A stretch of 64,000 nucleotides of DNA from Mariniphaga anaerophila (GTDB taxonomy: Bacteria; Bacteroidota; Bacteroidia; Bacteroidales; Prolixibacteraceae), in assembly GCF_900129025.1 (NCBI RefSeq), contig NZ_FQUM01000004.1:62001-126000 (forward strand). The letters are read 5' to 3'. Shown here in pieces: positions 19,525 through 45,188 of this stretch. Every line of letters starts with the position of its first letter. Within the stretch, counting starts at the first letter, position 1. The position numbers and the translations under genes were made by a program. Under the pieces are notes generated by a model, which saw nothing but the letters and a program-made list of their open reading frames with translations, was not told where the DNA came from and did not search any database.

Positions 19525-19604
19525 GCATCCTGAAAAATCAGATAATTGAATTACAAGAAAGAAATAATGAACAAGATGAAACAAATCCGGCAAGATTTTC
19601 AGGT

Positions 19605-19644: not shown

Positions 19645-19707
19645 AATTTCCATAGCGTGATGCCGTTGGAGCGTCGAATACCTTTTAGAAATTACAATAA
19701 CAAAACG

Positions 19708-20622: not shown

Positions 20623-20658
20623 TAAGAACAAGGTTTAACACAAACTGAAATTTTGATC

Positions 20659-26095: not shown

Positions 26096-29000
26096 ATGCA
26101 TAAAACTAGTTACAGTACCATTGCTATAAAGCTAACTATATTTCTATATTTTTTGGCAAGTGCAGTTTTGACAACCTATGCTGTTTCACCGTATATTCCA
26201 AAATATAAAGATCCTCTTTCTGAACCATGGAGATGGATTCATTATAAAACTTTGGACGGTATGGGAGCAAGATGTATGACAGAAGCTCATGACGGTGCCT
26301 TCTGGTTTGGGACAGAGAAAGGAATGGTATGTTTTGATGGGAAGGTATGGAATTTGGAGCCGGATAGCATTTTAAAGGGTCAAAAGATACTTGCTGTTTT
26401 TACTTCTAAATTGGGAGACTTGTGGGCTGTAGATAATCGTCGGATATTTAATCTATCGGATGGAAAATGGAGAACTATTTTTGAGTCGAAAGACATTTTT
26501 TTCAATCCACAATTATATAGTTGTGAATTTTTTGAGACCAGTGATGGTAGTGTCTGGATTGGCTCTTTGGCTGGACTCATTCAGATAAAAGGTAATTATG
26601 CTAGATTATACTCAAATAGAGAGGATATTCCAAAATTTGAATCAAATATCTATAGATGGGAAACACTTCTTATTCCTTCTGCATTAGATATTCAGTCACT
26701 TGACATTACCGGAATGTGCCAAGTTTCTGACTCTACTTTATGGATTGGAAATGCTGACGGAAAATTGTACCAATGTATATTTAGAGATGAAACAATTCAG
26801 GAATGGAAAAATGCGCCTTTAGGATATAGTGCAGGGGCAAATCCGAAACTTAAAATATTCGAGGATCAATTATTCGTAGTTACCAGCAGCAGGCATTCAC
26901 CCGTGATGTGTTTTGATTTGAAAAAGAACAAATGGAAAACACATTCATTAGATGAATATTTTGAATGGGATAGCAATGAAAATGTTTCTGTTTTTGTAAC
27001 AACGGATGATAAAATCTGGGTGGGAGGTTTTGGTCGCATTTTTTCTTATGATGGCAAAAACTGGAGAGAATATCAACATCCTCAATATAAAATTCCTGCG
27101 AGCAGAGTAAATTTCTTTAATGATTCAAAAGGACAAATGTGGATTATAGGTTTTCAGAATGATGTACTCTCAATAGACTACAGTGGTTCCCGGTTTCAGT
27201 CGTTTGATGGATTAAATTTTCAATTTGAATCATCAGAAGGAGATTCCTGGTTTATCACATACGAGGGGAATATTGTACGCTACTCTCCAGAAACAGAAGA
27301 GTGGATCTCCTTTGGTAAAGAAGACGGGATAATCAATTTTCCGGTACGGTTATTTCAAGATATTAGTGGAAGGGTTTGGACGATAGGTAGTCACGACAAT
27401 GTCGCTGCGACTGGGTGGTATGACAAAAAAGAATGGTTATTAAGAACGCATCCCAAACTGTGTTGGTCTATTTGTGAAACAGGGATCATGGAAGAAAGTG
27501 ATGGTACACTTTGGTTTGGAGCTTTGGGAAGCGAGGCAGGGAGTCCATGCCAAGGTTTAAGCTTAATTAGGTACTTTCCTTCCAAAGGCCAACCCGATGA
27601 TAATAAATCATGGGAGCTAATGCCTGGCCCTGGCGTTGTTTTTGGTATTGGTAAAGATGCTAATAAGTCGGTTTATATCGGCTCATATATGGGTCTTTCA
27701 AAGTATGTATCAGGACAATTTATTAATGCCAATGAGGTTTTGGGAGTAGAGTATCCAAAGATTGATTATATAGGAGGAGACGAAAACGAAATATGGATTG
27801 CAGTTAGAGGACAGGGAGCTTTTCTGATGAACGAAAATTCAACGCGACAGTTTCAGGTAGAAGATGGGCTGGCCAGCAACACTATTACAGATATTCTTTT
27901 TGCGGATAGAAATGATATTTGGTTCGGAACTGATCGTGGGATTAGTCGTTATCATACAGAATTGGACACTTGGATACCCCACGCAATTTCAGGAAAACTA
28001 ATTATTAAAAGGGAGTCGGGTAATCTTAAAAAAAGTTCTTCCGGCAAAATTTGGATTAATCAAAATTTCAGGGAGTGGAAAAAGTTTTTTCACAGTAGAA
28101 TACCGAATAATAAGCATAAAGAGCTTTTTTATACAATTCGGTATCTTCCCGATACACTCCCTCCGGAAACAGTGGTTAAGACACTCCCAAAGACAATAAG
28201 TTCAGGGGATGATATTTTTGTTGTTTGGGACGGCATTGATCCATGGAATCATACGCCAAATGAAGAATTGTTGTTTTCTTATAAAATGGATAATGGAGAG
28301 TGGTCCCCTTTTTCTACTCAAAAGAATCAACTTTTTTCATCGTTAAAACCAGGAAAACATCAATTTAGTGTTCGTGCATGTGACGGTGATTTTAATGTGG
28401 ATCCCACCCCATTTACTTTTCCCATTGAAGTTGTTCCTCCTGTTTACCGTCAGCTATGGTTTGTATTGTTAATAAGTCTTTTATCCCTTACGATTTTAAT
28501 TCAGGTATATTGGTTGATGCTTTCTCGTCAAAAACGTTTAAAAAGTGAACTTGCTTTGAGTGTAACCGAAGCAGAGAATGCGAGAACGATCAACGAAATG
28601 AAGATACGGTTTTTTACGAATATCTCTCATGAAATCAGGACTCCGCTGACATTAATCCTAGATCCGGTTAGAAAGCTGATAAGTCAAAAAAAATATGATC
28701 TTTTTTTGTTACAAATGGTTGAACAAAATGCTTCTCGATTACAAAGAATGATTAATCAAATACTAGACTTTAGAAAAATTGAAACAGGCAATACAGAATG
28801 CATACCTGTCTTTGGAGATATCATGCAAACTGCCAAAGAAGTGTTTTCATCTTTTCTTCTACAGGCTGAAAAGAAAAAAATTAATTACAGCATGCATCAG
28901 CAAGAAGATGAGATATATACATGGTTTGATGTAGATAAACTGGATAAGATATTGACCAACCTCGTCTCAAACGCAATTAAATACACTCCAGTAGGAGGAA

Positions 29001-30112
29001 ATGTTAGTTTTCAAATTAATTTTTCACCAAGAACAAAAAGTGATTGTTTTGATACAATTATTTTTTATATCCGTGATACGGGAATTGGTATATCGAAGGA
29101 AAATCAGACAAAAATATTCGAACGCTATTTTCAAGCTTCAGTTGGCTCTCAAAATATTGAAACAGGTACAGGAATAGGGCTTTCGTTTACCCGTGATTTG
29201 GTAAATACTTGCGGTGGTCATATTTCATTTGAAAGCTATCAGGGTGAAGGCACCATTTTTAAGGTTGAACTTCCTGTTGGATTACATTCTGAGGATCCAT
29301 TAAAAGAAAAGAACAGAAAGGAAAATAGATTGTCTCTCAAAAATGTTAAAAGTATACTTACAGTTCTTGTTGTTGAAGATAACACTGATTTATTAAATTA
29401 CTTGGGACAGGTTTTATCAGGTGAGGGTTTTAAGGTTTTGCTTGCAGAAAATGGAGTAATCGGTTTTAATATGGCAAGTTCGCAATTACCAGATTTAATT
29501 ATTAGTGATGTAATGATGCCGGAAATGGATGGCCTGCAATTCACGAAGAAAATCAAAAATGAAGAGAATACAAGCCACATTCCGATCATTCTACTTACAG
29601 CACGGAAATCGGAATTTCAACATTTGGAAGGACTAAAAGCAGGCGCTGATGATTATATTACTAAACCGTTCAGCTCGGAAATTGTGGTCGAGAAAATCAA
29701 AAATATTTTTCGTTCAAGAGATAACCTTGTGCGCCGTTTTAAAGAAAAATATACAGTCCTTCCTGCTGAAATCTCAAAAAATAGTAAGGACAGAATTTTT
29801 GTTGATAAATTTGTGTCTATTATGCTAGAGCATCTTTCGGAAAGCGACTTCAAAACAGATGATCTTTGCCGGGAAATTGGAATGAGCCGTACATTATTAT
29901 ATGCAAAAATTAAATCCATTACAGGTATGGCAGTAAATGAATTTATCCAAACAATTAAATTAAAGGAAGCTGCCCGTTTAATAATAATGGGTGATAAAAC
30001 TATTACAGAAGTGATGTATGATGTTGGTTATAACAACATCGGGCATTTTCGAAAACTATTTAAAAAGCAGTATAAAGTATCGCCCAGAGAGTTTAAAAAT
30101 AGTTCCATTTAA
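26096..30112 (+). CDS. Hybrid two-component system sensor/regulator (HTCS) of the PUL
   Basis: A 1338-residue one-protein signalling system. Signal peptide or N-terminal membrane segment (1-28); periplasmic beta-propeller of two-component-type repeats (about 40-690, motifs such as GSVWIGSLAGLIQ, DNEIWIAVRG, NDIWFGTDRGIS); Y_Y_Y domain (about 695-785); transmembrane helix (about 788-810); histidine kinase with His845 in FFTNISHEIRTPL; ATPase domain with NLVSNAIKYT, DTGIGIS and GTGIGLSF; receiver domain with Asp1138 in ISDVMMPEMDG and the conserved Lys in ITKPFS; AraC-type helix-turn-helix (about 1235-1338, ending VGYNNIGHFRKLFKKQYKVSPREF). HTCS proteins bind an oligosaccharide in the periplasm and activate the adjacent susCD genes. 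All key residues are present, so it should be functional. The divergence of the propeller would determine the glycan, which I cannot read. Confidence 0.95.
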   Translation: MHKTSYSTIAIKLTIFLYFLASAVLTTYAVSPYIPKYKDPLSEPWRWIHYKTLDGMGARCMTEAHDGAFWFGTEKGMVCFDGKVWNLEPDSILKGQKILAVFTSKLGDLWAVDNRRIFNLSDGKWRTIFESKDIFFNPQLYSCEFFETSDGSVWIGSLAGLIQIKGNYARLYSNREDIPKFESNIYRWETLLIPSALDIQSLDITGMCQVSDSTLWIGNADGKLYQCIFRDETIQEWKNAPLGYSAGANPKLKIFEDQLFVVTSSRHSPVMCFDLKKNKWKTHSLDEYFEWDSNENVSVFVTTDDKIWVGGFGRIFSYDGKNWREYQHPQYKIPASRVNFFNDSKGQMWIIGFQNDVLSIDYSGSRFQSFDGLNFQFESSEGDSWFITYEGNIVRYSPETEEWISFGKEDGIINFPVRLFQDISGRVWTIGSHDNVAATGWYDKKEWLLRTHPKLCWSICETGIMEESDGTLWFGALGSEAGSPCQGLSLIRYFPSKGQPDDNKSWELMPGPGVVFGIGKDANKSVYIGSYMGLSKYVSGQFINANEVLGVEYPKIDYIGGDENEIWIAVRGQGAFLMNENSTRQFQVEDGLASNTITDILFADRNDIWFGTDRGISRYHTELDTWIPHAISGKLIIKRESGNLKKSSSGKIWINQNFREWKKFFHSRIPNNKHKELFYTIRYLPDTLPPETVVKTLPKTISSGDDIFVVWDGIDPWNHTPNEELLFSYKMDNGEWSPFSTQKNQLFSSLKPGKHQFSVRACDGDFNVDPTPFTFPIEVVPPVYRQLWFVLLISLLSLTILIQVYWLMLSRQKRLKSELALSVTEAENARTINEMKIRFFTNISHEIRTPLTLILDPVRKLISQKKYDLFLLQMVEQNASRLQRMINQILDFRKIETGNTECIPVFGDIMQTAKEVFSSFLLQAEKKKINYSMHQQEDEIYTWFDVDKLDKILTNLVSNAIKYTPVGGNVSFQINFSPRTKSDCFDTIIFYIRDTGIGISKENQTKIFERYFQASVGSQNIETGTGIGLSFTRDLVNTCGGHISFESYQGEGTIFKVELPVGLHSEDPLKEKNRKENRLSLKNVKSILTVLVVEDNTDLLNYLGQVLSGEGFKVLLAENGVIGFNMASSQLPDLIISDVMMPEMDGLQFTKKIKNEENTSHIPIILLTARKSEFQHLEGLKAGADDYITKPFSSEIVVEKIKNIFRSRDNLVRRFKEKYTVLPAEISKNSKDRIFVDKFVSIMLEHLSESDFKTDDLCREIGMSRTLLYAKIKSITGMAVNEFIQTIKLKEAARLIIMGDKTITEVMYDVGYNNIGHFRKLFKKQYKVSPREFKNSSI

Positions 30113-30585: not shown

Positions 30586-33500
30586 ATGAAAAATGAATTA
30601 GTAGAAAAAAAAATCAGGGTGAGCCTGATACTTACTATTTTTTTTATGATTGGAAGCATGATACACGTATCTGCCTTGCCAAGTCATGCAGACGCGAGGA
30701 AAAATAGAAATTCCGTTCAGCAGCAATTACAGGTTTCGGGAAGAGTGACAGACTCAGATAATCATCCACTGCCTGGGGTTACTGTTATGATTAACAAAAC
30801 CACAACCGGGACCATTACAGACTTTGACGGTAATTATACGATAACAGTACCAAATGCAGGAATGGCAGAATTGGTTTTTTCTTTTGTTGGTTTCAATTCA
30901 CAAACTATTCAAGTGAGTGGAAGGACGGAAATTTCTGTTCAATTATCGGAAGCGCTGATAAATCTTGACGAGGTTGTTGTTGTTGGTTATGGTGAAATTA
31001 GCAAGCGTGACTTAACCGGTTCTGTAGCTAAAGTTGCTGAATCCGAAGCTGTCGCCCGGCAGTACAATAGTGTTGATGCCTTGCTTCAGGGACGTGCTAC
31101 TGGTGTGCAGGTTTCGTCTAATGCGGGCTCTCCTGGAGGAGCTATTAGCGTCCGTATTCGCGGAACCAACAGTTTGCGCGGGAACAATGAGCCATTATAT
31201 GTGATTGATGGCATTATTATTAATTCTGCTGCCGAAGATGTAACCAATGCCTCAACCGATTCAAATGAACTTCAGACCGATCAAAATGGGTTGACAGGGT
31301 TAAACCCCCGTGATATCGAAAGTATAGAAATATTGAAAGATGCCTCAGCGACTGCTATTTACGGTTCACGCGGTGCCAATGGAGTTGTTTTGATTACAAC
31401 AAAACAAGGAGATAAGGGGCATAGGACAAAAATCAATCTGTACAGCTCAGTCGAATTTAATTGGACTGCGAAGAATATTGACGTTTTAGATCCGATTGGT
31501 TTCGCCAAATATCAGAACGAGAGGAATGAATTTGAAGGCTCGAATTTGAATTATCAAATCAGTAATGACCAGGTATTTTCAATTACCTACGAAGGAGATG
31601 TACCTTTAGTCGGAACGACTCCTTTACAGCTAGTTAATTGGCAGGATGAAATTTATAAATTGAGCGTAAGCCATAATGAAGGTGTTTCTATTTCGGGGAG
31701 CAATAATAAAACAAATTATTACTTTTCCGCTGGTTATAATGACATTAATGGAATAGTAGAAACGACCAATATAAAGAAAGGAGATTTACGTTTAAACCTT
31801 AGTCAACAACTGTCGCCTAAGTTGAAAATGGACAACCGTATTGCATTTATGTATCAGGATGGAACTTTTGCCCAAGCGGGAAGTAAATCAGGAGGAGCTC
31901 GGAGTTTCACAAAACAGGTACTATTAAGCAAACCTATAATTGGTTTCGATCCGAATAATTCAGAAGAACTTGATCTTGGAATATCCAATCCTTATGCCTG
32001 GCTTTCCGATTTTGACGATCTTACCAAAGAAACAAGAGTAACTTTATCTTCTTCTTTTGAGTATGAAATACTAAAAGGGCTGAAATACACATTAAGAGGT
32101 GGATTGGATTACAGAAATAAAGAAAGAAGCCGATGGTATGGAAGTGAAGTTTATGTAGGCAATATGAACAATGGGCTTGCCAACTATTCTTATTTAAAAC
32201 GTTATTCTTATACTATTGATAATCTATTAATGTACAATAAAAAACTGGATGGCGGAGACAGAATTAATGCCACACTTGGTGTTACTTATGATGGAAGCGA
32301 AGTGGAGAATAAAGTTTATGAAGTTTCTGATTTTCCGGACAAAAGCCTTCGTGGGAGCTCTCCTCAATTAGGTCAGTTGATTCAGCAACCTCTGGCTCTG
32401 TTAAATGCAGATGAAGCGATTTTTTCTGCTTTGGGTAGGATTAATTACTCTTTGAAAGATCGTTACATCTTCACTGCTACTTTTAGGGCAGATCAATCAT
32501 CTAAATTTACAAAAGAAAATCAATGGGGGTATTTTCCCTCAGCTGCTTTTGCATGGCGGGCTAATGAAGAACAGTTTCTTAAAGACTTAGATATTTTTTA
32601 CAATTTGAAATTCAGGCTGGGGTGGGGGCAGACCGGAAATCAGGGAATTTCTCCTTACCAGACATTAGCTTCATACGCTACTAACTATTATACTAATGCC
32701 GCAGGAAATACTATTATAGGTAATTCTCCTGCACGCATTCCAAATAAAGAATTGACATGGGAAACAACCGATCAATATAATGCCGGAGTGGATGTATCTG
32801 TTTTTAAAGGACGGTTAAATGCTACCTTTGATGTTTACTATAAAAGAACGATTGATTTGCTTCAGGAGATAGAACTCGGGCCATCTAATGGTTTTGACAA
32901 AATGACCATTAATCGCGGGACTATTGAAAATAAAGGGCTTGAACTGGGTATTGACGGGACGCTCATTAATAAAAAAGACTTCTCTTTTGATATGGGTGGG
33001 CGTGTGGCTTTCAATCGAGGAAAAGTATTGGAGCTCGGACTAGACCCTACGCCTGTATGGAGAAATGGAGTTGAAACACATGTGGTTTATTACCAAGGCA
33101 ATGGCATTTCGTCAGGTCAATATTTGCATTTCCCGGTGAACGCATTTATGGAAGGAGAGGCTCTCGGGTTATTTTGGGGATACGAAACAAATGGAATATA
33201 TCTAGATGAAGAAGCAGCAATAGCTGGGCCAACATTTCAGGGAACCCCTAATCAAGCCGGTGATGTAATTTATGTTGACCATAATGGTGACGGGAATATT
33301 AGTGACGCAGATTTAACCATTGTTGGAGATCCAAATCCTGATTTTAGTTTTGGATTTGACTTTAATCTGAATTACAAGCAATTTAGTCTGAAAGTATTAT
33401 TTGATGGTGTTTACGGTAATGAAATAATTAACGGATATAATACGCAATTGGCTTTTCCAGAAGCGCAAGCTAACAACATTCTAAAAGATGCTTATGAAAA

Positions 33501-33831
33501 TGCATGGAGAACAGAAGCTCCTTCAGATAAATACCCAAGAATTGGTTATCGGTATTCATCAGCCGTTTTTTCCGACCGAATTGTAGAAGATGGATCGTAT
33601 TTGAGGTTAAATATTGTAACCTTGGGATATGACTTGCCTTTAAAATCAGGAAAGCTCTTTCAAAATGTTAATGTTTATGTATCGGGGCGTAACCTGTTTT
33701 ATATTACTAATTATAGTGGGTATGAACCCCAGGTTACCAGCTTTCTTCGCGATGGCACTATTATGGGTGTTGACTGGGTTGGTACACCTAATGTAAAGTC
33801 TGTGTTGTTTGGTATCAACGTTACATTTTAA
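30586..33831 (+). CDS. SusC/RagA-type TonB-dependent outer-membrane glycan transporter
   Basis: A 1081-residue protein. N-terminal signal (about 1-30), a carboxypeptidase-regulatory-like domain (about 47-122, VSGRVTDSDNHPLPGVTVMI), the SusC-type motif LDEVVVVGYG (127-136), a TonB plug domain (about 145-265, with VRIRGTNSLRGNNEPLYVID and IEILKDASATAIYGSRGANG) and a 22-strand barrel ending GINVTF. It imports oligosaccharides into the periplasm using energy from TonB-ExbB-ExbD, with SusD as the lid. The downstream susD starts 20 bases after its stop. This is the first gene of the PUL operon, likely under control of the HTCS. Confidence 0.96.
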   Translation: MKNELVEKKIRVSLILTIFFMIGSMIHVSALPSHADARKNRNSVQQQLQVSGRVTDSDNHPLPGVTVMINKTTTGTITDFDGNYTITVPNAGMAELVFSFVGFNSQTIQVSGRTEISVQLSEALINLDEVVVVGYGEISKRDLTGSVAKVAESEAVARQYNSVDALLQGRATGVQVSSNAGSPGGAISVRIRGTNSLRGNNEPLYVIDGIIINSAAEDVTNASTDSNELQTDQNGLTGLNPRDIESIEILKDASATAIYGSRGANGVVLITTKQGDKGHRTKINLYSSVEFNWTAKNIDVLDPIGFAKYQNERNEFEGSNLNYQISNDQVFSITYEGDVPLVGTTPLQLVNWQDEIYKLSVSHNEGVSISGSNNKTNYYFSAGYNDINGIVETTNIKKGDLRLNLSQQLSPKLKMDNRIAFMYQDGTFAQAGSKSGGARSFTKQVLLSKPIIGFDPNNSEELDLGISNPYAWLSDFDDLTKETRVTLSSSFEYEILKGLKYTLRGGLDYRNKERSRWYGSEVYVGNMNNGLANYSYLKRYSYTIDNLLMYNKKLDGGDRINATLGVTYDGSEVENKVYEVSDFPDKSLRGSSPQLGQLIQQPLALLNADEAIFSALGRINYSLKDRYIFTATFRADQSSKFTKENQWGYFPSAAFAWRANEEQFLKDLDIFYNLKFRLGWGQTGNQGISPYQTLASYATNYYTNAAGNTIIGNSPARIPNKELTWETTDQYNAGVDVSVFKGRLNATFDVYYKRTIDLLQEIELGPSNGFDKMTINRGTIENKGLELGIDGTLINKKDFSFDMGGRVAFNRGKVLELGLDPTPVWRNGVETHVVYYQGNGISSGQYLHFPVNAFMEGEALGLFWGYETNGIYLDEEAAIAGPTFQGTPNQAGDVIYVDHNGDGNISDADLTIVGDPNPDFSFGFDFNLNYKQFSLKVLFDGVYGNEIINGYNTQLAFPEAQANNILKDAYENAWRTEAPSDKYPRIGYRYSSAVFSDRIVEDGSYLRLNIVTLGYDLPLKSGKLFQNVNVYVSGRNLFYITNYSGYEPQVTSFLRDGTIMGVDWVGTPNVKSVLFGINVTF

Positions 33832-33851: not shown

Positions 33852-35408
33852 ATGAACTTGAAAAAATATATAGTGAGCTTTTTGGCAATTTGTTCATTGC
33901 TTATTTCATGCAATTTGGAAGAGCATCCAACCTTCCCTTCAGCAGAAAGCCTTTTTAGTACATCCGCAGGGGCTAACACTGTTCTAAACGGAGTGTTTTC
34001 TGACATGAAAGATTATAGGTCTTATGGTGCTATTTATTATTTATTGACAGGCTATGGATCCGGTCTTTTTAATACAAATAAAGATGATGTTTTAACTACT
34101 ATTGCGGGGTTTAAGCCATTATCTTCAGAAGAGGTAATTGAAGTTTTTTGGAGAGGCTCTTATATGTCAATCGGGAGAACGAATGATTTGATTGATGGTC
34201 TTTCTTCGCAAGTTATAGAAGACGAGAAAGAAAAAGACAATATTCTTGGACAGGCTTATTTTCTGAGAGCCTTCTGCTATTTTAATTTGGTTCGTATCTA
34301 CGGAGGGGTTCCACTCATCACCAAGGTTGTTACAACATCCGAAATGAATTATCCCAGGGCTACAGAAGAAGCAATCTACGATCAGATTATTAGCGATGCA
34401 GAGATGGCGAAACAATTACTCCCCAAAAATGGCTCAAATACACCGGGAAGGCCTGCGAGTGAGGCCGCCAGCATGTTACTAGCCAAAGTCTACATGCAAC
34501 TGGCAGGGAATCAGACCGCCGGGGAGACCGATAATTGGCAGAAAGCCTATAACGAAGCAATGGAAGTATATGGCAAATATAGTCTGGTTGAAAACTACCG
34601 CTCGCTTTGGTATGAAGAAACAGGAAACAATACTAGTGAATCAATTTTTGAGATTCAGGCCAATGTAGAAAATCGCCTTCGTTTAGTACAGATTGGTACC
34701 GCTTCAAACGGCTTGGCTGGAAGAAACTCCTGGGGAAGGCTGAAACCAAACTTGGAATGTTATGATATGCACGAAGAACGATATCCGGGAGATCCTCGTT
34801 TCGAGTCGACTTTTGTTACTGAATACACGCAATACAATTCAAATGGAACCACTACTTTTAGGCAAACATATCCATTTTTTAAAAACCGTAATGATAAACC
34901 TAGAAGTTATCCTTGGTTATTTAAATACTATATTAAAAATACAACAGCACCAAATTGTGATACCGGACAAAACTGGATCGCTTTTCGATATGCAGAACTT
35001 TTACTGATGCTGGCTGAAATAAAGAATGAATTGAGCGGACCAAATGATGCCTACCAATATGTCAATGAAGTATTGGCCCGTGCGCGCAACTCTGCTCAGA
35101 CACCGACAGCAGAACCCGCAGATTGGTCAGGGATGAATCAGGAAGAATTTCGGGATGCCATTATGTTTGAATACAGGTATGAGTTATTGGGCGAAGGACA
35201 GGATTATTTTAAAGTTAGGAGAAGGGGGTATGAACATTTCAAAAAAAATGTTATTGAAATACATAATAGCCATCCGGGGTATGATTTTTCAAAAAGCAGG
35301 GATATTTTATATCCGGATAATTCCAGGATTATGCTCATGCCAATTTCTCAGTCTGAGATTATTGCTAATCCTAATATCAGTATTGAAGATCAGAACCCGG
35401 GTTATTAA
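33852..35408 (+). CDS. SusD/RagB-type surface glycan-binding lipoprotein
   Basis: A 518-residue lipoprotein. The signal peptide ends in a lipobox (LLISC, Cys near residue 20). The SusD_RagB fold is shown by the N-terminal part (FSTSAGANTVLNGVFSDM), the helical TPR-like scaffold (GQAYFLRAFCYFNLVRIYGG, ASMLLAKVYMQLAG) and the C-terminal domain (FRYAELLLMLAEIKNE, FEYRYELLGEGQDYFKVRR). It caps the SusC barrel on the cell surface and captures the glycan. Tandem placement after susC defines the PUL. A 32-bp perfect palindrome follows 29 bases after its stop. Confidence 0.96.
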   Translation: MNLKKYIVSFLAICSLLISCNLEEHPTFPSAESLFSTSAGANTVLNGVFSDMKDYRSYGAIYYLLTGYGSGLFNTNKDDVLTTIAGFKPLSSEEVIEVFWRGSYMSIGRTNDLIDGLSSQVIEDEKEKDNILGQAYFLRAFCYFNLVRIYGGVPLITKVVTTSEMNYPRATEEAIYDQIISDAEMAKQLLPKNGSNTPGRPASEAASMLLAKVYMQLAGNQTAGETDNWQKAYNEAMEVYGKYSLVENYRSLWYEETGNNTSESIFEIQANVENRLRLVQIGTASNGLAGRNSWGRLKPNLECYDMHEERYPGDPRFESTFVTEYTQYNSNGTTTFRQTYPFFKNRNDKPRSYPWLFKYYIKNTTAPNCDTGQNWIAFRYAELLLMLAEIKNELSGPNDAYQYVNEVLARARNSAQTPTAEPADWSGMNQEEFRDAIMFEYRYELLGEGQDYFKVRRRGYEHFKKNVIEIHNSHPGYDFSKSRDILYPDNSRIMLMPISQSEIIANPNISIEDQNPGY

Positions 35409-35511: not shown

Positions 35512-36618
35512 ATGAAAAAACTTTCGAATTTAATAGAATTATCAAAAGTAAAGAATCGTTGCCAGAAAAGTAGTTGCTGGCTTTTTACAAAACAGATTGT
35601 TAAAACTGCTCATGTGAAACTTGTCTGGCTGTTAATAATACTTTCGTTATCATGTAGTGCTAACGAACCTGACAAAGGGGATTCTGGACATGGGGGTGTT
35701 TTGTTGTTTAAGTCCGGATTCGAAAATGGTGTAACCATCTCTTCTGATATGAATTATATCCATGGAGCAGATGAACATTATAAATGGGAGGCTACACCTT
35801 CATGGATCAGGGCTTCTAATTTTGTCTATTTGGTCAATGACACAGAGCATCTTCGTGATTTTATGGAATCGGCAATTATTAGTGCCCCAGGTCCAAACGG
35901 CAAAAAAACCAATGTGCTCTGCATGGCCAACAAAGCAGACGACCCGATGCACCAAGCTACCAGTCGAAATGAATACAGTTTTTTTTGTAAAAGTCCACCT
36001 GACGATTACAAAGAAGGCTACGTTCGATACTGGATGAAACTTCCGGATGATTTGGATAAGCGGATTCCTTTTGAAAAAGAATCATCATGGTATGTTATTA
36101 TGGAGTGGAAGGAACCTAACTCAGGCAATCGACTTTCCAAAGAAGAATGCAGGGATTGTTGCAATGCAAGCCAGGGAGGAACCAATAATTACCGGATAAA
36201 TATCAACCTAAGAAAAGATAAAAATTCAGATAAGCTACACTGGGATATCCGTGCTGAACACCCTCAACCCTGCCGGGTGGAGGAATGGACTTATGCTAGC
36301 AAAAATGTCAAAGTTTCATTGGGAGAATGGTTTTTGGTAGAAGCTTACATGAAGAAGGATGTAATTGATGGACGCTTATATTTTGCTGTTGACGGGGAAG
36401 TAGTTTTGGATACAGATATTGTCCGCCCGGTAGGATTTGAAGGAAGAACAGTGCATCCTGACAATCCCCTACCACTACATTTCTGGTCCCCATTGAAAAA
36501 CTATCATAATATGGAGTGGAATGCAAAAGGAGAAATTATTCATCTGTACGATGATTTTGAAATGTGGAGTAGTTTTCCTCCCGGACATCCGGCCTTGTTG
36601 ACAAAAAAACAGGAATGA
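35512..36618 (+). CDS. Secreted lipoprotein, jelly-roll fold, possible polysaccharide lyase
   Basis: A 368-residue protein with a long N-terminus (about 38 residues) before a hydrophobic segment ending in LSLSC, a good lipobox, so it is probably surface- or periplasm-anchored. The true start may be later, but the next ATG would cut the signal, so the given start is kept. The body looks like a concanavalin-type jelly roll of the polysaccharide lyase kind: FKSGFENGV at the front, YVRYWMKLPDD, SLGEWFLVEAYMKK, GRLYFAVDGEVVLDTD and IHLYDDFEMWSSF strands. These resemble PL families with a beta-jelly roll, but I cannot name a family or catalytic residues with confidence. It follows susD in the same operon, so it probably acts on the imported glycan or its surface-bound form. 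Confidence 0.6.
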   Translation: MKKLSNLIELSKVKNRCQKSSCWLFTKQIVKTAHVKLVWLLIILSLSCSANEPDKGDSGHGGVLLFKSGFENGVTISSDMNYIHGADEHYKWEATPSWIRASNFVYLVNDTEHLRDFMESAIISAPGPNGKKTNVLCMANKADDPMHQATSRNEYSFFCKSPPDDYKEGYVRYWMKLPDDLDKRIPFEKESSWYVIMEWKEPNSGNRLSKEECRDCCNASQGGTNNYRININLRKDKNSDKLHWDIRAEHPQPCRVEEWTYASKNVKVSLGEWFLVEAYMKKDVIDGRLYFAVDGEVVLDTDIVRPVGFEGRTVHPDNPLPLHFWSPLKNYHNMEWNAKGEIIHLYDDFEMWSSFPPGHPALLTKKQE

Positions 36619-36748
36619 AAAAACATAAAAATATTAGCAAAATAACTGCTCTAAAAAGCGGTCTGTCTTCTAATGAGTGGATAAACTGTAATTGCAGAGT
36701 AATTTCTCTCGTAAACATAAAATGTTGAATAATTAGAGTAGTTGATTG

Positions 36749-37429
36749 ATGAAAATTGTAATAATAATAATGATGATGATGTCTGTTGTGTCTGGCAAGA
36801 AAGAAAGGATCATTATTAAGGAATCTTTTGATTATCCAGATGGAAAACTACCTTCAATTTGGTGGAGCGAAGGGTGTGAAGCGGAATTGAAGGACGGACG
36901 ACTGTTTGTTGATGCTGACACTACTTCTTACAGAGCATCCACGATTTGGCTTGATCATGAATTGTCGGGAAGCTTAAAGATAGAATTCGATGCGCATATT
37001 GTAGCTTCCAGCGACAACGCTAATAATATTAACTGCTTTTTATTGTATTCTGATCCTGAAGGACGACCTCTTCGTGAAACAGCACAAGAACGGGAATGTG
37101 GCTCTTATGGGCTGTATCATGAGTTAAACGGATACATTTTTACCAATGTCGCCAATGGCGAAGAGTCGAATGTCCGGTTTAGAGTTAGGGACAACCCCGG
37201 TTTTTATCTGTTGAATGAAAACTACAGAGGCGAAACCAAAGCAGGGAAAACTTATCATATTAAAATTGAAAAGACAAATAGCCGTTTTCAGTACTGGATT
37301 AATGGTGAAAAAATTATAGATATGGAGGATAAATCTTATAACCCACTCTATAACAAAGGGCTTTTTGGATTCCGAACTTGGCATACAGCTATTTGGTGGG
37401 ATAATTTAGTAATTACTCAATTAGATTAA
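36749..37429 (+). CDS. Secreted concanavalin-like protein (DUF1961/DUF6250-like), unknown function
   Basis: A 226-residue protein; ATG at 36749 is used rather than the TTG immediately before it. A short hydrophobic, Met-rich signal segment (MKIVIIIMMMMSVVSG) leads to a single lectin-like beta-sandwich: ESFDYPDG, WWSEGCEAELKDGRLFVDA, LKIEFDAHIV, NCFLLYSDPEGRPL, YHIKIEKTNSRFQYWINGEKI and GLFGFRTWHTAIWWDNLVI. This matches the general pattern of DUF1961/DUF6250-type proteins often found in PULs. It could be a carbohydrate-binding protein or a lyase; no catalytic residues can be assigned. It lies 130 bases after the previous gene and two bases before the VOC gene. Confidence 0.65.
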   Translation: MKIVIIIMMMMSVVSGKKERIIIKESFDYPDGKLPSIWWSEGCEAELKDGRLFVDADTTSYRASTIWLDHELSGSLKIEFDAHIVASSDNANNINCFLLYSDPEGRPLRETAQERECGSYGLYHELNGYIFTNVANGEESNVRFRVRDNPGFYLLNENYRGETKAGKTYHIKIEKTNSRFQYWINGEKIIDMEDKSYNPLYNKGLFGFRTWHTAIWWDNLVITQLD

Positions 37430-37431
37430 TA

Positions 37432-38319
37432 ATGCAAAAATTGATAATAACCATAAAGAAAGCCCTGACTATTTTTTTGGGGGTGATGCTTTTGAGTATT
37501 ACAGAGATGTTGGCACAAGATATTAAACGTCCTCCGGTTTGGGGAGTAGCAAAAATGACCTTCTTAGTAAGTGATTTTAATATTGCTCGTTCATTTTATG
37601 GTGATTTTTTGGGCTACGAAGAAGCTTTCTCTTATCATACAGATCTAGGTAAAGTCATTTCATTTAAGGTGAACGACCGACAATTTCTCGAGTTTGTCGA
37701 AGATTCTCAGATAAAGAGAAAAAACAGTTTTGTTAGTGTTTCATTTCATTGCGATGATATCTCGGGAATGGAAGCTTATCTAAAATCAAGAGAGATTAAC
37801 ATCCTGAAAGAACATGGTTTAGACAATGCCGGAAATGAAGTTCTGTCTATTCAAAGCACTGAGTTCTATCAGATAGAGTTTATTAATTTCACAAAGAGTG
37901 GATTACATAAAAGGACAGCAACCCGTTTCTTGGGGAAAGAGCGCGTTGCTAATCGATTACATCACGCAGGTTTATACGTTTCAGATGTAGCAAAAGCAGA
38001 CTATTTGTTTCGTGATATATTGGGCTTTTGGGAAATGTGGCGGTTCAAAACAGCCAATGATATACGGCCTAACTTCATTTACATGGGAATACCTGATTGC
38101 ATCGAAAATATCGAATACCTTGTAACAGATGACAGCAACACATCACACCCCTGTTTCAAAGTCGAAGATATGCAAGAGATGATTTATGTGCTGAAGGAGA
38201 GGAGCGGTGGACGAAAAATTCCCCGCCCGATTATTGGCAAAGGAAACAGATGGTTATTAAATATGAAAAACGAGGACAACACTAAAGTTGAATTTACAGA
38301 ATCATTCACTGTGCGATAA
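37432..38319 (+). CDS. Secreted protein with two VOC (glyoxalase-like) domains
   Basis: A 295-residue protein with a signal peptide (about 1-29, ending MLAQ) and two vicinal-oxygen-chelate modules: residues about 36-150 (MTFLVSDFNIARSFYGDFLGY ... QFLEFVED) and about 175-290 (HHAGLYVSDVAKADYLFRDILGF ... IENIEYLV). VOC enzymes bind a metal with His/Glu ligands at the paired beta strands. The second module keeps the His (RLHHAGL) and Glu (NIEYLV); the first lacks the His at the equivalent strand. Most VOC proteins are cytoplasmic, so export is notable. The reaction is unknown. It starts two bases after the previous stop and is followed ten bases on by the aldo/keto reductase, so all three are translated from one message. 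Confidence 0.8.
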   Translation: MQKLIITIKKALTIFLGVMLLSITEMLAQDIKRPPVWGVAKMTFLVSDFNIARSFYGDFLGYEEAFSYHTDLGKVISFKVNDRQFLEFVEDSQIKRKNSFVSVSFHCDDISGMEAYLKSREINILKEHGLDNAGNEVLSIQSTEFYQIEFINFTKSGLHKRTATRFLGKERVANRLHHAGLYVSDVAKADYLFRDILGFWEMWRFKTANDIRPNFIYMGIPDCIENIEYLVTDDSNTSHPCFKVEDMQEMIYVLKERSGGRKIPRPIIGKGNRWLLNMKNEDNTKVEFTESFTVR

Positions 38320-38329
38320 AACTAAAACA

Positions 38330-39310
38330 ATGAAAAAAGAAATAACCAGGCGGGATTTTATTGTAGAAACTATTGGTGCGGGATTCGCGATAAGCGGAGT
38401 TGGAGCGCTTACTGCTTGTAACGAGAAAGATGCCAGGGGGCTTCCTACAACAGTACTAGGAAAAACCGGAGTGAGAGTTCCCTTGATGGCATTGGGTCTT
38501 GGAAGTCGCTTCTGTGAAATAGATGATCCGGAAGAATCCGATCAAATACTAAATTATGCGCTTGATAACGGATTGTATTACTGGGATACTGCTCATATTT
38601 ATGAAAATAATAAAAATGGCGTGATCAGTGAGGAGCGTATAGGCAGGATCGTTAAATATAGGAGAAAAGAAATTTTTCTTTCTACAAAAGTAACCAGTCG
38701 TGATCCAAATGAGGCAATGATGCAGATCGAAAAAAGTCTGAGACGACTGCAAACGGATCACCTGGATATTTTGAAGATACACAATATTAGAGATATGAAT
38801 GATGTAGACAAGGTAAGCGAGAAAGGAAATTTGGTCGATATTATTCAGAGAATGAAAGAGGAAGGAATTTGTCGTTTTATTGGTTTTTCGGGGCATATGG
38901 ATGCAGAAGCGATGATTGCGATGGCAGAGAGGTTTGATCTGGATACAATGCTTATTGCATTGAACCATTGGGGAAAAGTACGATTTCCGAGGGAAGAAAA
39001 GTCTCTGCCAATGGTTCGTAGTAAAGGTTTGGGAGTGATGGTAATGAAGGTTCTTCGTCCCCGAGATAGCGATCCGTCTATCAGCCCCAAAGAACTAATC
39101 AGGTACGGTCTTTCGCTAAAAGCAGCTCATGGTGCTGTGGTAGGCATAGACAGCATGAAGGTACTGCAAGAAAATATTAAGCTGTTAAAAAGTTTTGAAC
39201 CAATGACTTCTGAGGAAATGAAAACTATGACGGTTTGCTTGGATCCTTTTTTTCATCATAACAATATGCCTTGGATGACCCCTGGATATTGTGACGGTAA
39301 TTGGGCATAG
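38330..39310 (+). CDS. Tat-exported aldo/keto reductase
   Basis: A 326-residue protein from the ATG at 38330 (an earlier in-frame start would overlap the VOC gene). The N-terminus is a twin-arginine signal (TRRDFIVETIGAGFAISGVGAL) with a Cys in LTACN that could also be lipidated. The body is an aldo/keto reductase barrel: VPLMALGLGS, YYWDTAHIYENN (catalytic Asp and Tyr), FLSTKV (Lys) and LDILKIHNI (His), then MKEEGICRFIGFSGH. These enzymes reduce carbonyls or oxidise alcohols with NAD(P)H; Tat export implies folding with its cofactor in the cytoplasm before export. Its pairing with a secreted VOC protein suggests an extracytoplasmic sugar modification. A substrate cannot be named. Confidence 0.88.
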   Translation: MKKEITRRDFIVETIGAGFAISGVGALTACNEKDARGLPTTVLGKTGVRVPLMALGLGSRFCEIDDPEESDQILNYALDNGLYYWDTAHIYENNKNGVISEERIGRIVKYRRKEIFLSTKVTSRDPNEAMMQIEKSLRRLQTDHLDILKIHNIRDMNDVDKVSEKGNLVDIIQRMKEEGICRFIGFSGHMDAEAMIAMAERFDLDTMLIALNHWGKVRFPREEKSLPMVRSKGLGVMVMKVLRPRDSDPSISPKELIRYGLSLKAAHGAVVGIDSMKVLQENIKLLKSFEPMTSEEMKTMTVCLDPFFHHNNMPWMTPGYCDGNWA

Positions 39311-39362
39311 AATAGTTTAAAAAAGTGAATATAAATTGAATTTCAGTAAAATCAATATTCTG

Positions 39363-41207
39363 ATGAGACAAATCTTGATTCTTTTTACCTTATTGTTGGT
39401 GCTGTGCTCAGGAAGAGGGCAAACTATGCAATCGGTTAAAATCCATGGTGAGCAAAAAGTATGGCACAAAATTACACTTTTGATTGACGGTCCTGAAACA
39501 GCAGAATTCGCTAAAGACAATCCTTTTTTGAATTATAGATTGGTAGTGACTTTCAGCAATGGTAATAAACGGTATAAGGTACCCGGTTTTTATTGTGCCG
39601 ATGGAGATGCAGCTGAAACCAGTGCTGAAGAAGGAAACAAATGGATGGTACGTTTCCGGCCTGATGAGGTAGGAATATGGGATTATTCAATTTCTTTCCG
39701 AAAGGGAAAAGATATTGCTGTGAGCAGCCATTTACACATCGGCAAACCTGTTGGTCCTGATGGTTTTAAAGGCTCCTTTGTTATTGTTGACTCAGACAAA
39801 AAGGCTCCTGATTTCAGAGGAACCGGTCGGCTCGAATATGTAGGTAAACGTTATTTAAAATTTGCAGGACGTGATTCGTTTTTTATAAAGAATGGAGCTG
39901 ATAGTCCTGAAAATTTTTTGGCTTTTGTTGATTTTGATCAAACTTATAGGTATGGAACCAATGAAATGTGGAGAGAAGGTGAAGCAAACCCTAAAGAGGA
40001 GTGCCATTACTATTCATCGCACGTTAAGGACTGGAAAAAGGGAGACCCAATTTGGAAAGAAAGCAATGGAAAAGGAATCATTGGGGTTGTTAACTATCTT
40101 GCTTCTAAAGATGTTAATTCTATATACATGCTTTTGTTAAATGTTCAGGGAGATGGAAATGACGTCTGGCCATGGATAGATTACAACGAACGTTATCGTT
40201 TTGACTGTAGCAAACTCGATCAGTGGGAAATTGTTTTTGATCATATGGAAAAGCAAGGCATCATGCTTCATTTGGTTTTACAGGAAACCGAGAATGAGTG
40301 TTTGCTTGATATCGGGCAAACCGGAGTCCAGCGTAAGCTTTATTATAGAGAAATGGTTGCCCGCTTTGCTCATCACCTTGCTATTACCTGGAACTTAGGA
40401 GAGGAGAATGGACCGGCCCATTGGACACCTATTGGTCAAACCGACCAGCAACGAAAAAGCATGGCAGCTTATTTGAAACATATAAATCCATATTCAAGTT
40501 TTATCGTTTTGCATACGCATTGGAACGATTCTATTCAGGATAAATATTTGCTGCCACTAGTTGGTTTTGAAGCACTTGATGGTCCCTCTATGCAAATAGG
40601 AGAAGTGGGAAAAATTCATCGCAGAATTAGACATTTTATTCAATTGTCTTCTAATTCAGAAAAACAATGGGTTGTCAATCTGGACGAATTAGGTCCGGCA
40701 TATAAAGGAATTATGCCTGATGAATTTGATGCAAATCATGATACGGTTCGCCATTATGCGTTGTGGGGAAGTTTAATGGCAGGAGCAGGTGGTGCAGAAT
40801 GGTATTTTGGTTACAAATACCCACATAATGATTTAGAGTGCGAGGACCTGCGCAGTCGTGATCTTTGGTGGAACCAGACTCGAATTGCCACAGAGTTTTT
40901 CTCTCGTTACCTGCATTTCAGTGAGATGGAATCGGCAGATGAAATAATTGACAACAAAGAAGCATACTGTCTGGCAAAACAAGATGAAGTGTATGTTGTC
41001 TATTTGCCCAAAGGAAATATACCGACCCGGATTGAGCTGGATAGTTCCGGAAAGGACTACTCAATTCACTGGTATGACCCTCGTCACGGAGGCAAATTGC
41101 AGACCGGGACGGTTTCCTCGTTCAGATCTCCAGGAAAAATGAACATAGGATTTCCTCCCATTGAAAAAGAGAAAGATTGGGTCGCTCTGGTTAGAGTGAA
41201 ACAATAA
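39363..41207 (+). CDS. DUF5060-containing putative glycoside hydrolase
   Basis: A 614-residue secreted protein from the ATG at 39363 (MRQILILFTLLLVLCSGRGQ signal); the TTG at 39336 is less likely. An N-terminal DUF5060 beta-sandwich (about 25-115, VWHKITLLIDGPETAEF, GIWDYSISF) precedes a TIM-barrel-like domain (about 150-500) and a C-terminal small beta domain (WYDPRHGG ... LQTGTVSS) like the putative collagen-binding domain seen at the end of such enzymes. Two acidic clusters sit where clan GH-A enzymes have catalytic residues: Glu347/Glu348 in TWNLGEENG and Asp441/Glu442 in VVNLDELGPA. So a retaining glycosidase is plausible, though the specificity is unknown. It starts 52 bases after the reductase and is the last gene of the susC operon. 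Confidence 0.75.
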   Translation: MRQILILFTLLLVLCSGRGQTMQSVKIHGEQKVWHKITLLIDGPETAEFAKDNPFLNYRLVVTFSNGNKRYKVPGFYCADGDAAETSAEEGNKWMVRFRPDEVGIWDYSISFRKGKDIAVSSHLHIGKPVGPDGFKGSFVIVDSDKKAPDFRGTGRLEYVGKRYLKFAGRDSFFIKNGADSPENFLAFVDFDQTYRYGTNEMWREGEANPKEECHYYSSHVKDWKKGDPIWKESNGKGIIGVVNYLASKDVNSIYMLLLNVQGDGNDVWPWIDYNERYRFDCSKLDQWEIVFDHMEKQGIMLHLVLQETENECLLDIGQTGVQRKLYYREMVARFAHHLAITWNLGEENGPAHWTPIGQTDQQRKSMAAYLKHINPYSSFIVLHTHWNDSIQDKYLLPLVGFEALDGPSMQIGEVGKIHRRIRHFIQLSSNSEKQWVVNLDELGPAYKGIMPDEFDANHDTVRHYALWGSLMAGAGGAEWYFGYKYPHNDLECEDLRSRDLWWNQTRIATEFFSRYLHFSEMESADEIIDNKEAYCLAKQDEVYVVYLPKGNIPTRIELDSSGKDYSIHWYDPRHGGKLQTGTVSSFRSPGKMNIGFPPIEKEKDWVALVRVKQ

Positions 41208-41598
41208 AGAGTTAGACCTAACTTGCAGGGTGGTTAAATAAAAAAACAGAAGCCTTTCATAGTTATCTTAACTCTTTTTGGGGAAAGATCGTATTTCCCA
41301 GATGTAAACAGTAGTAACTTGATCCAATCGTCTATAGAGAATTATAATTACCTCTGTTTATGAATTTTAAAAATAATTATATGTTTGGTAAATTAGACAT
41401 GCGTGGTGCAATAAAAAAAAATGTAGATGCATGAACATGGATTATAAAAGAAAAATAGTCATGAATACTAGTACTGATGAAGCCAGAGGCTTCACTTTTC
41501 TTCAAACAAAAGCAAGCCTCCCAAAGCTATGTGCAGTTAAGCTTTGTTTTGATTTTTGGACTTTAAAGAACTGGAAAGAATCAAATAGACCAATAAAA
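41208..41598. other. 391-bp gap: sulfatase promoter and long leader
   Basis: The gap holds the promoter at 41357-41387 and a leader of about 200 bases. The leader contains a 6-bp stem GAAGCC/GGCTTC (41479-41493) followed by ACTTTTCTT, which resembles a weak terminator or attenuator. An in-frame ATG at 41431 would extend the sulfatase by 56 residues, but those residues are not signal-like. Confidence 0.5.
41357..41387 (+). promoter_or_regulatory. Promoter of the first sulfatase gene
   Basis: TATGTTTG at 41380-41387 is a perfect TAnnTTTG -7 element and TTTA at 41357-41360 is a 3-of-4 -33 match at the standard 19-bp spacing. The sulfatase therefore probably has its own promoter instead of relying on the susC operon. 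Confidence 0.6.
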
Positions 41599-42972
41599 AT
41601 GTCATACTTTATTTTGTCTGTATTTTTGTTTTCATTCCTGTTTTTGTCGGGTTGTAAAAATGAAACGAATAAGGAACAGCATGAACCTCCAAATTTCATT
41701 GTGTTTATTGCTGATGATGCCGCTTGGAATGATTGTGGACCTTATGGTAACCACAATATTAAAACTCCAAACATTAATAATCTAGCCGAAGAAGGGGTAG
41801 TATTTTTTAATGCTTTCCTTACAACCAGCTCATGCAGCCCCAGCCGGAGTAGTATATTAACCGGACGTTATCCGCATTGCACCGGAGCATCGGAACTGCA
41901 TATGCCGTTACCTGAAGATCAGCTTTTGTTTCCCGGAGAATTACAAAAAGCAGGTTATTATACTGCAGTAGCTGGGAAATATCACATTGGCCCCAAAAGA
42001 AAAGAATTTGACACCATTTATGGTGGCTCGCCCAGTGGCTGCGAATACTGGATTGAATCGCTTCAAAACCGACCTAAAAACAAGCCTTTTTTCTTATGGC
42101 TTGCAGCACTCGATCCTCACCGTGAATATGCTTTCGGCACAATCTCGGAACCCCATCAGCCGGAAGATGTAATTGTGCCTCCATATTTGCCGGACAACGA
42201 CTCAACTCGTAAAGATTTGGCACTATATTATGATGAAATTGCACGTATGGATAGTTATATTGGACAGGTAATGGGTGAATTAAAGAAACAAGGTATTGAC
42301 GAAAATACGCTGATACTTTTCATGAGTGATAATGGCAGTCCGTTTCCGCGGGCTAAAACCCGATTATATGATAGTGGTATAAAAACTCCATTCATCGTTC
42401 GCTGGCCTAAAAAACTAAAAAATGGAACTTCAGACGCACTAATAAGTTCCATCGATATTGCCCCCACTTTGTGTGAATTGGCGGGTGCAGGCATTTCAGA
42501 AACCTATCAGGGGATTTCCTTTTTGCCAATTTTAAAAAACTATTCTGAAAGCGTTCGAAACTACATTGCGGCTGAACACAATTGGCACGATTATCAGGCT
42601 CATGAACGTGCTATTCGAAATAAAAACTATTTATATATTAGGAATGCTTTTCCCCAATTCAATGCTTCTCCTCCTGCCGACGCTGTGAATAGTATGACCT
42701 ATCGGGAAATGATTAGATTATATGAAGCCGGTGAGCTGGCAGAACATCATTTAGACTGCTTTATTGAACCACGAAATGCTGAGGAGTTATACGATGTTAA
42801 AAATGACCCGTATCAATTTTATAATTTGGCAGGCAACCCGAAATATGAAAAAGAATTGAATGGGATGCGAAAATTACTTGACAACTGGAGCTTAAAATTT
42901 GGTGATAAAATTCCAGAAAATCCAACGCCAGATAAATTTGACAGATGGACAGGAGAGCGTCTGTCATTTTGA
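41599..42972 (+). CDS. Sulfatase (S1 family), lipoprotein, inside the PUL
   Basis: A 457-residue type I sulfatase. ATG 41599 is chosen because it begins a lipoprotein signal (MSYFILSVFLFSFLFLSGC). Metal and catalytic motifs are present: FIADDAAWNDCG (calcium ligands Asp-Asp), Cys79 in SCSPSRSSILTGR, the C-x-P-S-R signal for oxidation to formylglycine, KYHIGPKR, and FMSDNGSPFPRAKTRLYDSG. It removes sulfate esters from a glycan in the periplasm or at the surface and needs an anaerobic or aerobic maturase encoded elsewhere. It is the last gene inside the AT-rich segment and has its own promoter. The subfamily and regiospecificity cannot be fixed by eye. Confidence 0.93.
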   Translation: MSYFILSVFLFSFLFLSGCKNETNKEQHEPPNFIVFIADDAAWNDCGPYGNHNIKTPNINNLAEEGVVFFNAFLTTSSCSPSRSSILTGRYPHCTGASELHMPLPEDQLLFPGELQKAGYYTAVAGKYHIGPKRKEFDTIYGGSPSGCEYWIESLQNRPKNKPFFLWLAALDPHREYAFGTISEPHQPEDVIVPPYLPDNDSTRKDLALYYDEIARMDSYIGQVMGELKKQGIDENTLILFMSDNGSPFPRAKTRLYDSGIKTPFIVRWPKKLKNGTSDALISSIDIAPTLCELAGAGISETYQGISFLPILKNYSESVRNYIAAEHNWHDYQAHERAIRNKNYLYIRNAFPQFNASPPADAVNSMTYREMIRLYEAGELAEHHLDCFIEPRNAEELYDVKNDPYQFYNLAGNPKYEKELNGMRKLLDNWSLKFGDKIPENPTPDKFDRWTGERLSF

Positions 42973-45036: not shown

Positions 45037-45047
45037 ACCTTTTTTAT

Positions 45048-45092
45048 GTGGATTCCATCTTCTATTCATTAGAAATGGAATCCACTCGTTTT
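45048..45092 (+). terminator. Hairpin between the two chromosomal sulfatase genes
   Basis: GTGGATTCCAT (45048-45058) and ATGGAATCCAC (45075-45085) form a perfect 11-bp stem with a 16-nt loop, followed by TCGTTTTG. It begins 12 bases after the stop of the first sulfatase. The T-tract is weak, so it may terminate only part of the transcripts into the next sulfatase. Confidence 0.65.
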
Positions 45093-45188
45093 GAAGACAA
45101 AAAACACAATATTTCCAACCAACGCAGTTCATCACCAGAGCGTCTTCCAATATTTACAAACAGCTGCTTTCACTAAAAAACAGTACTT

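Follow-up and report, generated by a model that had tools for sequence, protein, structure and literature searches.

In Mariniphaga anaerophila, a polysaccharide utilization locus (PUL) on contig NZ_FQUM01000004.1 encodes an exported vicinal oxygen chelate (VOC) protein and an exported aldo/keto reductase (AKR), which are the subject of this analysis. The locus lies within a stretch of 64,000 nucleotides (contig positions 62,001 to 126,000), hereafter called the window, whose own numbering is used below. Adjacent SusC and SusD genes, a regulator and enzymes, by which PULs are recognized, are all present in it. A hybrid two-component sensor/regulator (HTCS) of PUL type (26096..30112, + strand; Pfam Reg_prop, HisKA, HATPase_c, Response_reg and HTH_18) is followed by a SusC-type TonB-dependent transporter (30586..33831, +; TIGR04056 at 837 bits, cut-off 368; Pfam Plug and CarbopepD_reg_2) and a SusD-type lipoprotein (33852..35408, +; PF07980 at 113 bits and PF14322 at 98.5 bits). 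To the 3′ side of these three genes, five open reading frames (ORFs), g1 to g5, occupy 35512-41207, all on the + strand. An earlier reading of this DNA from its letters alone (the sequence-only reading) had placed five genes after susCD, including those for a double VOC protein, an AKR of the twin-arginine translocation (Tat) type and a DUF5060 protein, and these ORFs were confirmed. The gaps between g2 and g3 (2 bp), g3 and g4 (10 bp), and g4 and g5 (52 bp) are so short that g2 to g5 probably form a single operon.

The VOC protein g3 (37432..38319, +) appears to be an exported tandem metalloprotein, with a hydrophobic N-terminal signal, two glyoxalase-like domains and the putative metal ligands H178, E228, H239 and E287 in its C-terminal barrel. 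The neighboring gene g4 (38330..39310, +) encodes a Tat-type AKR, apparently a lipoprotein (PF00248 Aldo_ket_red at 95.9 bits, cut-off 24).

Distribution and conservation of the pair

The VOC protein is rare: a phylum-wide profile search (E ≤ 1e-40) over 395 genomes found it in 3, one of which is the window's own. Within the family it was found in 12 of 140 genomes at E ≤ 1e-20, namely the window's own, seven with 47-52% identity and four with 24-31%. A scan with one genome per species gave 33 VOC loci from Prolixibacteraceae, Tannerellaceae, Parabacteroides acidifaciens, Alistipes, rumen Bacteroidales and Verrucomicrobia, with distant ones in Acidobacteria and Planctomycetota. The set of 27 loci used here comprises the window, L020 and 25 of these 33. 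The eight left out (L047, L049, L051, L052 and L055-L058) are distant, at 24-32% identity, and have no AKR above 200 bits in the fetched stretch. Loci L014-L019 and L021 are repeats of L050, L029, L026, L053, L027, L028 and L031, respectively, and were counted once; L094 and L103 appear to duplicate L043, having the same ORFs.

In 23 of the 27 loci, which are from Bacteroidota and Verrucomicrobia, an AKR relative (> 200 bits) adjoins the VOC gene or lies one gene away from it on the same strand. The two genes are directly adjacent in 19 of these 23, where the distance between them ranges from -32 to 50 bp, and exactly one gene, a DUF2264 gene, stands between them in L036, L037, L045 and L046. 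In the remaining four loci (L026, L040, L044 and L054) the contig ends at the VOC gene or close to it, with no AKR on the visible side and the other side missing. Pairing conserved to this degree is not an annotation accident. Wherever the surroundings are visible the VOC protein accompanies an AKR, while the AKR is not dependent on the VOC protein. A compact example is the locus of P. acidifaciens 426-9 (L036:3-10885), where a regulator (truncated, as the fetched stretch starts within it) is followed by SusC, SusD, AKR, DUF2264 and VOC genes and then by genes on the opposite strand; no glycosidase was recognized from SusD to VOC, and only three enzyme genes follow SusCD in the fetched locus. 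The claim of the sequence-only reading that redox and VOC proteins with export signals occur in this PUL was borne out. That reading had also proposed looking for the same gene set in other genomes; it is the pair that recurs, g1 and g2 both accompanying it in only 3 of the 27 loci.

Export signals and active sites

Export was judged by motifs and hydropathy rather than by a signal-peptide predictor. In 26 of the 27 VOC ORFs the Kyte-Doolittle hydropathy over 11 residues reaches 2.2 or more within the first 60 residues, marking a hydrophobic segment; the exception, L054, is an ORF called from an upstream start. The g4 product, read from the ATG at 38330, begins MKKEITRRDF...LTAC, a Tat-lipoprotein-like signal; the twin arginine is kept in all 23 paired AKRs, and a lipobox cysteine is at position 30 in 10 of them. 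A cytoplasmic location of both proteins was rejected on the basis of the twin arginines and the hydrophobic N-terminal segments.

Conservation in the VOC protein was followed in an alignment of 30 rows, made up of 24 of the 27 loci (all except L026, L044 and L054) and six distant proteins (L022-L025, L047 and L049). H178, E228, H239 and E287 are invariant in all 30, as are R171 and R204, two arginines that would fit a carboxylate. In hhalign, the C-terminal barrel matched Escherichia coli glyoxalase I with 94% probability (E 9e-8, 19% identity), and its four residues fell onto H5, E56, H74 and E122, the metal ligands of that enzyme. The H/E(Q)/H/E ligand pattern of glyoxalase I and methylmalonyl-CoA epimerase is therefore present in this barrel at the sequence level. 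The N-terminal barrel is different. In the 24 closer proteins position 41 is K or R and position 102 is S or A, whereas in the six distant ones 41 is H throughout and 102 is H (five) or Q (one); E87 is kept in 30/30 and E149 in 29/30. The substitutions at 41 and 102 indicate that the AKR-linked VOC proteins have one intact and one degenerate site. Profile matches in the PDB were to the proton-transfer enzymes methylmalonyl-CoA epimerase and glyoxalase I, to metallothiol transferases and, weakly, to dioxygenases.

The six distant exported double-VOC proteins have metal-type residues in both barrels and no close AKR in the stretches seen. Another distant VOC protein, in locus L092 (9328-15558) and outside the alignment, lies near a tagaturonate epimerase, a D-mannonate oxidoreductase and a protein that combines a 3-keto-disaccharide hydrolase domain (PF06439) with a marginal match to alginate lyase.

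The AKR assignment of g4 is supported both by the Pfam match and by the tetrad D86/Y91/K120/H151 at the catalytic positions. Among the 23 paired AKRs, Y91, K120 and H151 are kept throughout, and position 86 holds Asp in 21 of them and Glu in the other 2. Position 274 is D or E in all 23, which hints at NAD as the cofactor. AKRs at E ≤ 1e-60 are present in 28 of the 140 family genomes, and this genome carries two copies. When 36 AKRs, 23 of them paired and 13 unpaired, are placed in a tree, the paired label has to change three times, which fits either an old pairing followed by losses or several gains. L031, which has a VOC gene, and L086, which has none, share similar downstream genes as judged by eye. 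The second Tat-type AKR of this genome (L088:8532-9512) and three relatives (L089, L090 and L091) are 46-47% identical to g4 and unpaired. The copy in this genome lies one gene from RecG, and a RecG-like ORF (by eye) is close to the AKR in L090 and L091. This unpaired AKR is probably a core gene.

Overall, the pairing, the export motifs and the metal ligands are solid as sequence-level results, and the VOC protein and AKR make most sense as a single two-enzyme unit whose metal site is of the glyoxalase type.

Neighboring genes in the window and elsewhere

Genes near the pair were searched with Pfam for hand-chosen neighbors only, and the flanks of several loci are cut by contig ends. Families acting on uronates scored above the Pfam cut-off near the pair in 12 of the 27 loci, L046 having two such families. 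DUF2264 was found in L036, L037, L045, L046 and L050, heparinase II/III-type proteins in L026, L028, L034, L035 and L046, GH88 in L020 and L039, and GH28 (two genes) in L030; GH88-like proteins below threshold occur in L031 and L045. In L039 the order is VOC, AKR, GH88, KduI and a KduD-like short-chain dehydrogenase/reductase (SDR). The sequence-only reading had suggested that the enzymes act on a lyase-generated or unsaturated sugar, and these neighbors favor it indirectly, through homologous loci among which the window is not found.

The DUF2264 proteins match two GH154 dehydratases in the PDB (9o4u and 9nwf), and beta-D-glucuronate dehydratase activity was measured for two members of GH154, as PMC12269599 reports. 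As a control, DUF2264 gave 73 matches in 58 of the 140 family genomes. In 13 chosen VOC genomes, corresponding to 14 of the 27 loci, there were 15 matches in 11 genomes, 5 of them at the pair. The five pair-linked proteins score 253-262 bits, and in the family and VOC-genome searches no others fall between 231 and 294 bits (one of the five recurs in the family search as G072). A dedicated DUF2264 subtype therefore seems to be tied to the pair. Proteins of the Gfo/Idh/MocA family lie at most three genes from the pair in L020, L038, L041 and L042, and are remote relatives of the glycoside 3-dehydrogenase BT_2158 (136-294 bits, cut-off 750).

In the window, the genes that accompany the pair are of other kinds. 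g1 (35512..36618, +) encodes a lipoprotein (lipobox LSLSC, by eye) that may be a jelly-roll lyase or a glycan binder. It had no match in Pfam or NCBIfam, and a profile search with its relatives found no carbohydrate enzyme. More broadly, NCBIfam named none of g1-g5 above a cut-off, and phmmer against PDB sequences gave nothing useful for g1, g3 and g5. Relatives of g1 show sub-threshold PF14099 or PF06439; for PF14099 (Polysacc_lyase) the best of eight relatives, L097, reached 23.9 bits (E 4.5e-5) against a cut-off of 29.9. Of the earlier label "lyase-like lipoprotein", the lipoprotein part stands, and the lyase part is weak because the likeness to PF14099 is remote and confined to that one relative. 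Relatives of g1 were found in 2/140 family genomes and 10/393 order genomes (the window's own included), and homologues lie near a VOC gene in the window, L053, L030, L043 and L095.

g2 (36749..37429, +) encodes an exported DUF6250 protein (PF19763 at 66.3 bits, cut-off 26.9) with a distant likeness to 3-keto-disaccharide hydrolases, its PF06439 score of 25.5 bits falling below the cut-off of 26.8; homologues are found in L053 and L030, at 50 and 58% identity, respectively. g5 (39363..41207, +) encodes a putative glycoside hydrolase in which Pfam recognizes DUF5060 and a Collagen_bind_2 tail, with relatives of 51-52% identity in the VOC loci L028 and L041.

The AT-rich segment that holds these genes extends over 24-42 kb, with a GC content of 0.34-0.40 in 2-kb steps. 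GC at third codon positions (GC3) is 0.31-0.37 from SusC to g6, the first of three sulfatase genes that follow g5, and 0.55 and 0.43 in the next two genes. Because the segment is AT-rich and begins with a DDE_Tnp_1 transposase, it was probably acquired. This transposase (DDE_Tnp_1/DUF4372, 24461-25660) lies where GC falls from about 0.47 to 0.36, possibly at the edge of the acquired PUL; terminal inverted repeats were looked for around it, and no clear ones were found. The VOC protein (E ≤ 1e-20) and g1 (E ≤ 1e-8) were not found in three other genomes of the genus. Further upstream, 5788-22713 encodes a repetitive surface protein of 4578 aa with a C-terminus like those of gliding-motility proteins (by eye); PorP/SprF and an OmpA-PD40 protein come next, and the arrangement resembles an operon for a type IX-secreted adhesin.

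Proposed chemistry and its alternatives

We propose, at a probability of roughly 0.4, that g3 and g4 form a two-enzyme unit performing keto-sugar chemistry outside the cytoplasm, by a closed redox cycle, on the oligosaccharides imported by SusCD, which would most likely bear uronic acids. Tat carries folded proteins, and the AKR would leave by that route after folding around NAD(P) in the cytoplasm. It would then convert a ring hydroxyl to a ketone. Glyoxalase-type sites stabilize an enediolate at a metal, and the metal site of the VOC protein would chelate the ketone and the adjacent oxygen and abstract the alpha proton, the resulting enediolate leading to epimerization, to a carbonyl shift or to beta-elimination of the glycosidic bond. 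The AKR would finally re-reduce the product, making the sequence redox-neutral overall, so that no outside supply of NAD(P)H would be required. A closed cycle with bound cofactor is favored because an exported AKR cannot rely on free NAD(P)H. For the pair, we infer the substrate, cofactor retention, the order of steps and the oxidized position. In other genomes the pair would cooperate with uronate dehydratases, heparinase-type lyases and unsaturated-uronyl hydrolases; in the window, its partners would be g1, g2 (with its remote likeness to 3-keto-disaccharide hydrolases) and g5. There is a precedent for part of such a scheme in the metal-dependent 3-keto-glycoside lyase PuCGE, which acts following C3 oxidation (PMC13273386), and periplasmic hydrolysis of 3′-ketolactose has been suggested for DUF1080 proteins (PMC9007349).

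Several points weigh against this proposal. None of the enzymes in the window PUL belongs to a proven uronate family, the sole DUF2264 of this genome lies on another contig (G000:C22), and no uronate-acting family was recognized in the fetched flank of 15 of the 27 loci, among the chosen neighbors scanned. The 12 positive loci are not independent, as L026 and L028 come from one genome and L034 and L035 from near relatives, and the heparinase-type gene of L034 is on the opposite strand. Among the uronate-acting families the background control covers DUF2264 alone, and 10 of the 15 DUF2264 matches in the hand-chosen 13 VOC genomes lie away from the pair. At 13 loci examined, AKR relatives occur without VOC, indicating that the AKR has a VOC-independent role. 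In L039, where KduI and a KduD-like SDR accompany the pair, downstream uronate metabolism is ordinary. Finally, retention of the AKR cofactor through Tat is assumed by analogy.

One of the closest known systems is the 3-keto-glycoside pathway (glycoside 3-dehydrogenase, DUF1080 3-keto-glycoside hydrolase/lyase and 3-keto reductase). Both combine, on our proposal, an exported redox enzyme with a keto-sugar enzyme; DUF1080 (PF06439) also shows up in the distant VOC locus L092 and, below threshold, in g2, and Gfo/Idh/MocA relatives occur in the four loci named above. However, here the redox enzyme is an AKR and the metal enzyme a VOC protein, and g1-g5 have no match above cut-off to any gene of that pathway. 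The cycle of GH154/DUF2264 dehydratase and GH88 in Bacteroides caccae PUL25 (PMC12269599) is echoed by the DUF2264 genes that five loci have next to the pair or inside it and by GH88 in two others, but the main text of that paper mentions neither VOC nor aldo proteins, and the window PUL lacks both DUF2264 and GH88. Glyoxalase I and methylmalonyl-CoA epimerase share the H/E/H/E ligands of the g3 C-terminal barrel and are among its best PDB profile matches, whereas g3 is exported and tandem, has a degenerate N-terminal site, occurs with an AKR in PULs and is only 19% identical to the E. coli glyoxalase. The pair would be a variant of exported keto-sugar chemistry in a PUL; its sequence features are solid, and from them we infer its reaction and substrate. 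A bolder version, that the two proteins are an undescribed exported machine for breaking or remodeling uronate glycans, with the AKR in place of the Gfo/Idh/MocA dehydrogenase and the glyoxalase-like enzyme as keto-sugar epimerase or lyase, may be right, though we hold it doubtful. Among the open-license papers listed, none dealt with an exported VOC-AKR pair in PULs, a scope that makes the absence weak.

KduI, a cupin, and KduD, an SDR, are cytoplasmic enzymes that share with the pair the logic of an isomerase and a reductase as well as uronate neighbors. The pair could be their exported counterpart, with the VOC protein isomerizing 5-keto-4-deoxyuronate and the AKR reducing the product to 2-keto-3-deoxygluconate before uptake. 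Such a role would agree with the presence of GH88 close to the pair in two loci (L020 and L039) and of DUF2264 in five, with the suitability of glyoxalase-type enediol chemistry for an aldose-ketose shift, and with a weak likeness of the AKR to the 2,5-didehydrogluconate reductase DkgA (36.5 bits, cut-off 425). However, KduI (419.8 bits, cut-off 250) and a KduD-like SDR are already encoded next to the pair and GH88 in L039, which weakens plain replacement of KduI and KduD, and net reduction requires NAD(P)H, which is not known to be available outside the cytoplasm. We consider a counterpart of this kind unlikely.

The sequence-only reading had envisaged a route specific to a sulfated glycan. 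Sulfatase genes g6, g7 and g8 do follow g5, and g6 (41599..42972, +; S1-type, PF00884 at 168 bits, nearest PDB names S1_8 sulfatases; GC3 0.33) is AT-rich like the PUL; sulfatases were also recognized in the VOC loci L030 and L033. Within the fetched flanks of the 26 other VOC loci, however, these two are the only ones, no relative of the window sulfatases being recognized in the remaining 24. Among the three sulfatase genes only g6 has the PUL-like composition, and orthologues of all three are clustered in three sister-species genomes (G108, G109 and G110) at 72.9-85.4% identity (73-76% for g6), in which the VOC protein and g1 were not found. The G109 cluster has ExbB/ExbD-like genes (by eye) close by, resembling those that flank the window cluster. 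Because its orthologue sits in the sulfatase cluster of the sister species, g6 is a doubtful member of the PUL unit. The three sulfatases were accordingly rejected as proof of a sulfated substrate and, with the cluster kept where VOC was not found and sulfatases so seldom recognized in the flanks of other VOC loci, a sulfated-glycan route is not established and seems improbable. Gene order differs as well: g6 lies between g7 and g8 in the sister species (L117, L118 and L119) and before g7, in the AT-rich segment, in the window (41431-46646), where g7 and g8 are only 152 bp apart; g6 may have been moved or replaced.

Glyoxalases and AKRs are classic detoxification enzymes, and the glyoxalase-type metal site of the VOC protein would also suit a protective rather than catabolic pair that removes reactive carbonyls, whether methylglyoxal-like or alpha-keto products made by lyases. 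A thiol cofactor would not be expected outside the cytoplasm, and SusD-like genes near the pair in 10 of the 27 loci and SusC-like genes in 13, together with DUF2264 in five, suggest catabolism, leaving this explanation little chance. An extradiol-type dioxygenase acting on a phenolic attached to a plant or algal glycan, suggested by the two-barrel layout with its intact C-terminal site and by HpaD as best NCBIfam match, was rejected as very improbable, given an HpaD score of 22 bits (cut-off 321), an invariant fourth ligand (E228) that makes the set H/E/H/E rather than the three-ligand H/H/E of type I extradiol dioxygenases, and relatives in Parabacteroides, Tannerellaceae and rumen Bacteroidales, which are groups of anaerobes.

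If the proposed keto-sugar unit is real, it would add a glyco-active role to two familiar superfamilies, whose members would work on polysaccharide fragments beyond the cytoplasm with no NAD(P)H supplied, and would account for PUL genes annotated merely as VOC or aldo/keto reductase in gut, rumen and environmental bacteria. The pair would also be a testable partner for the recently recognized uronate dehydratases, and the P. acidifaciens locus, with its regulator, SusC, SusD, AKR, DUF2264 and VOC genes, would be a small system suited to such testing.

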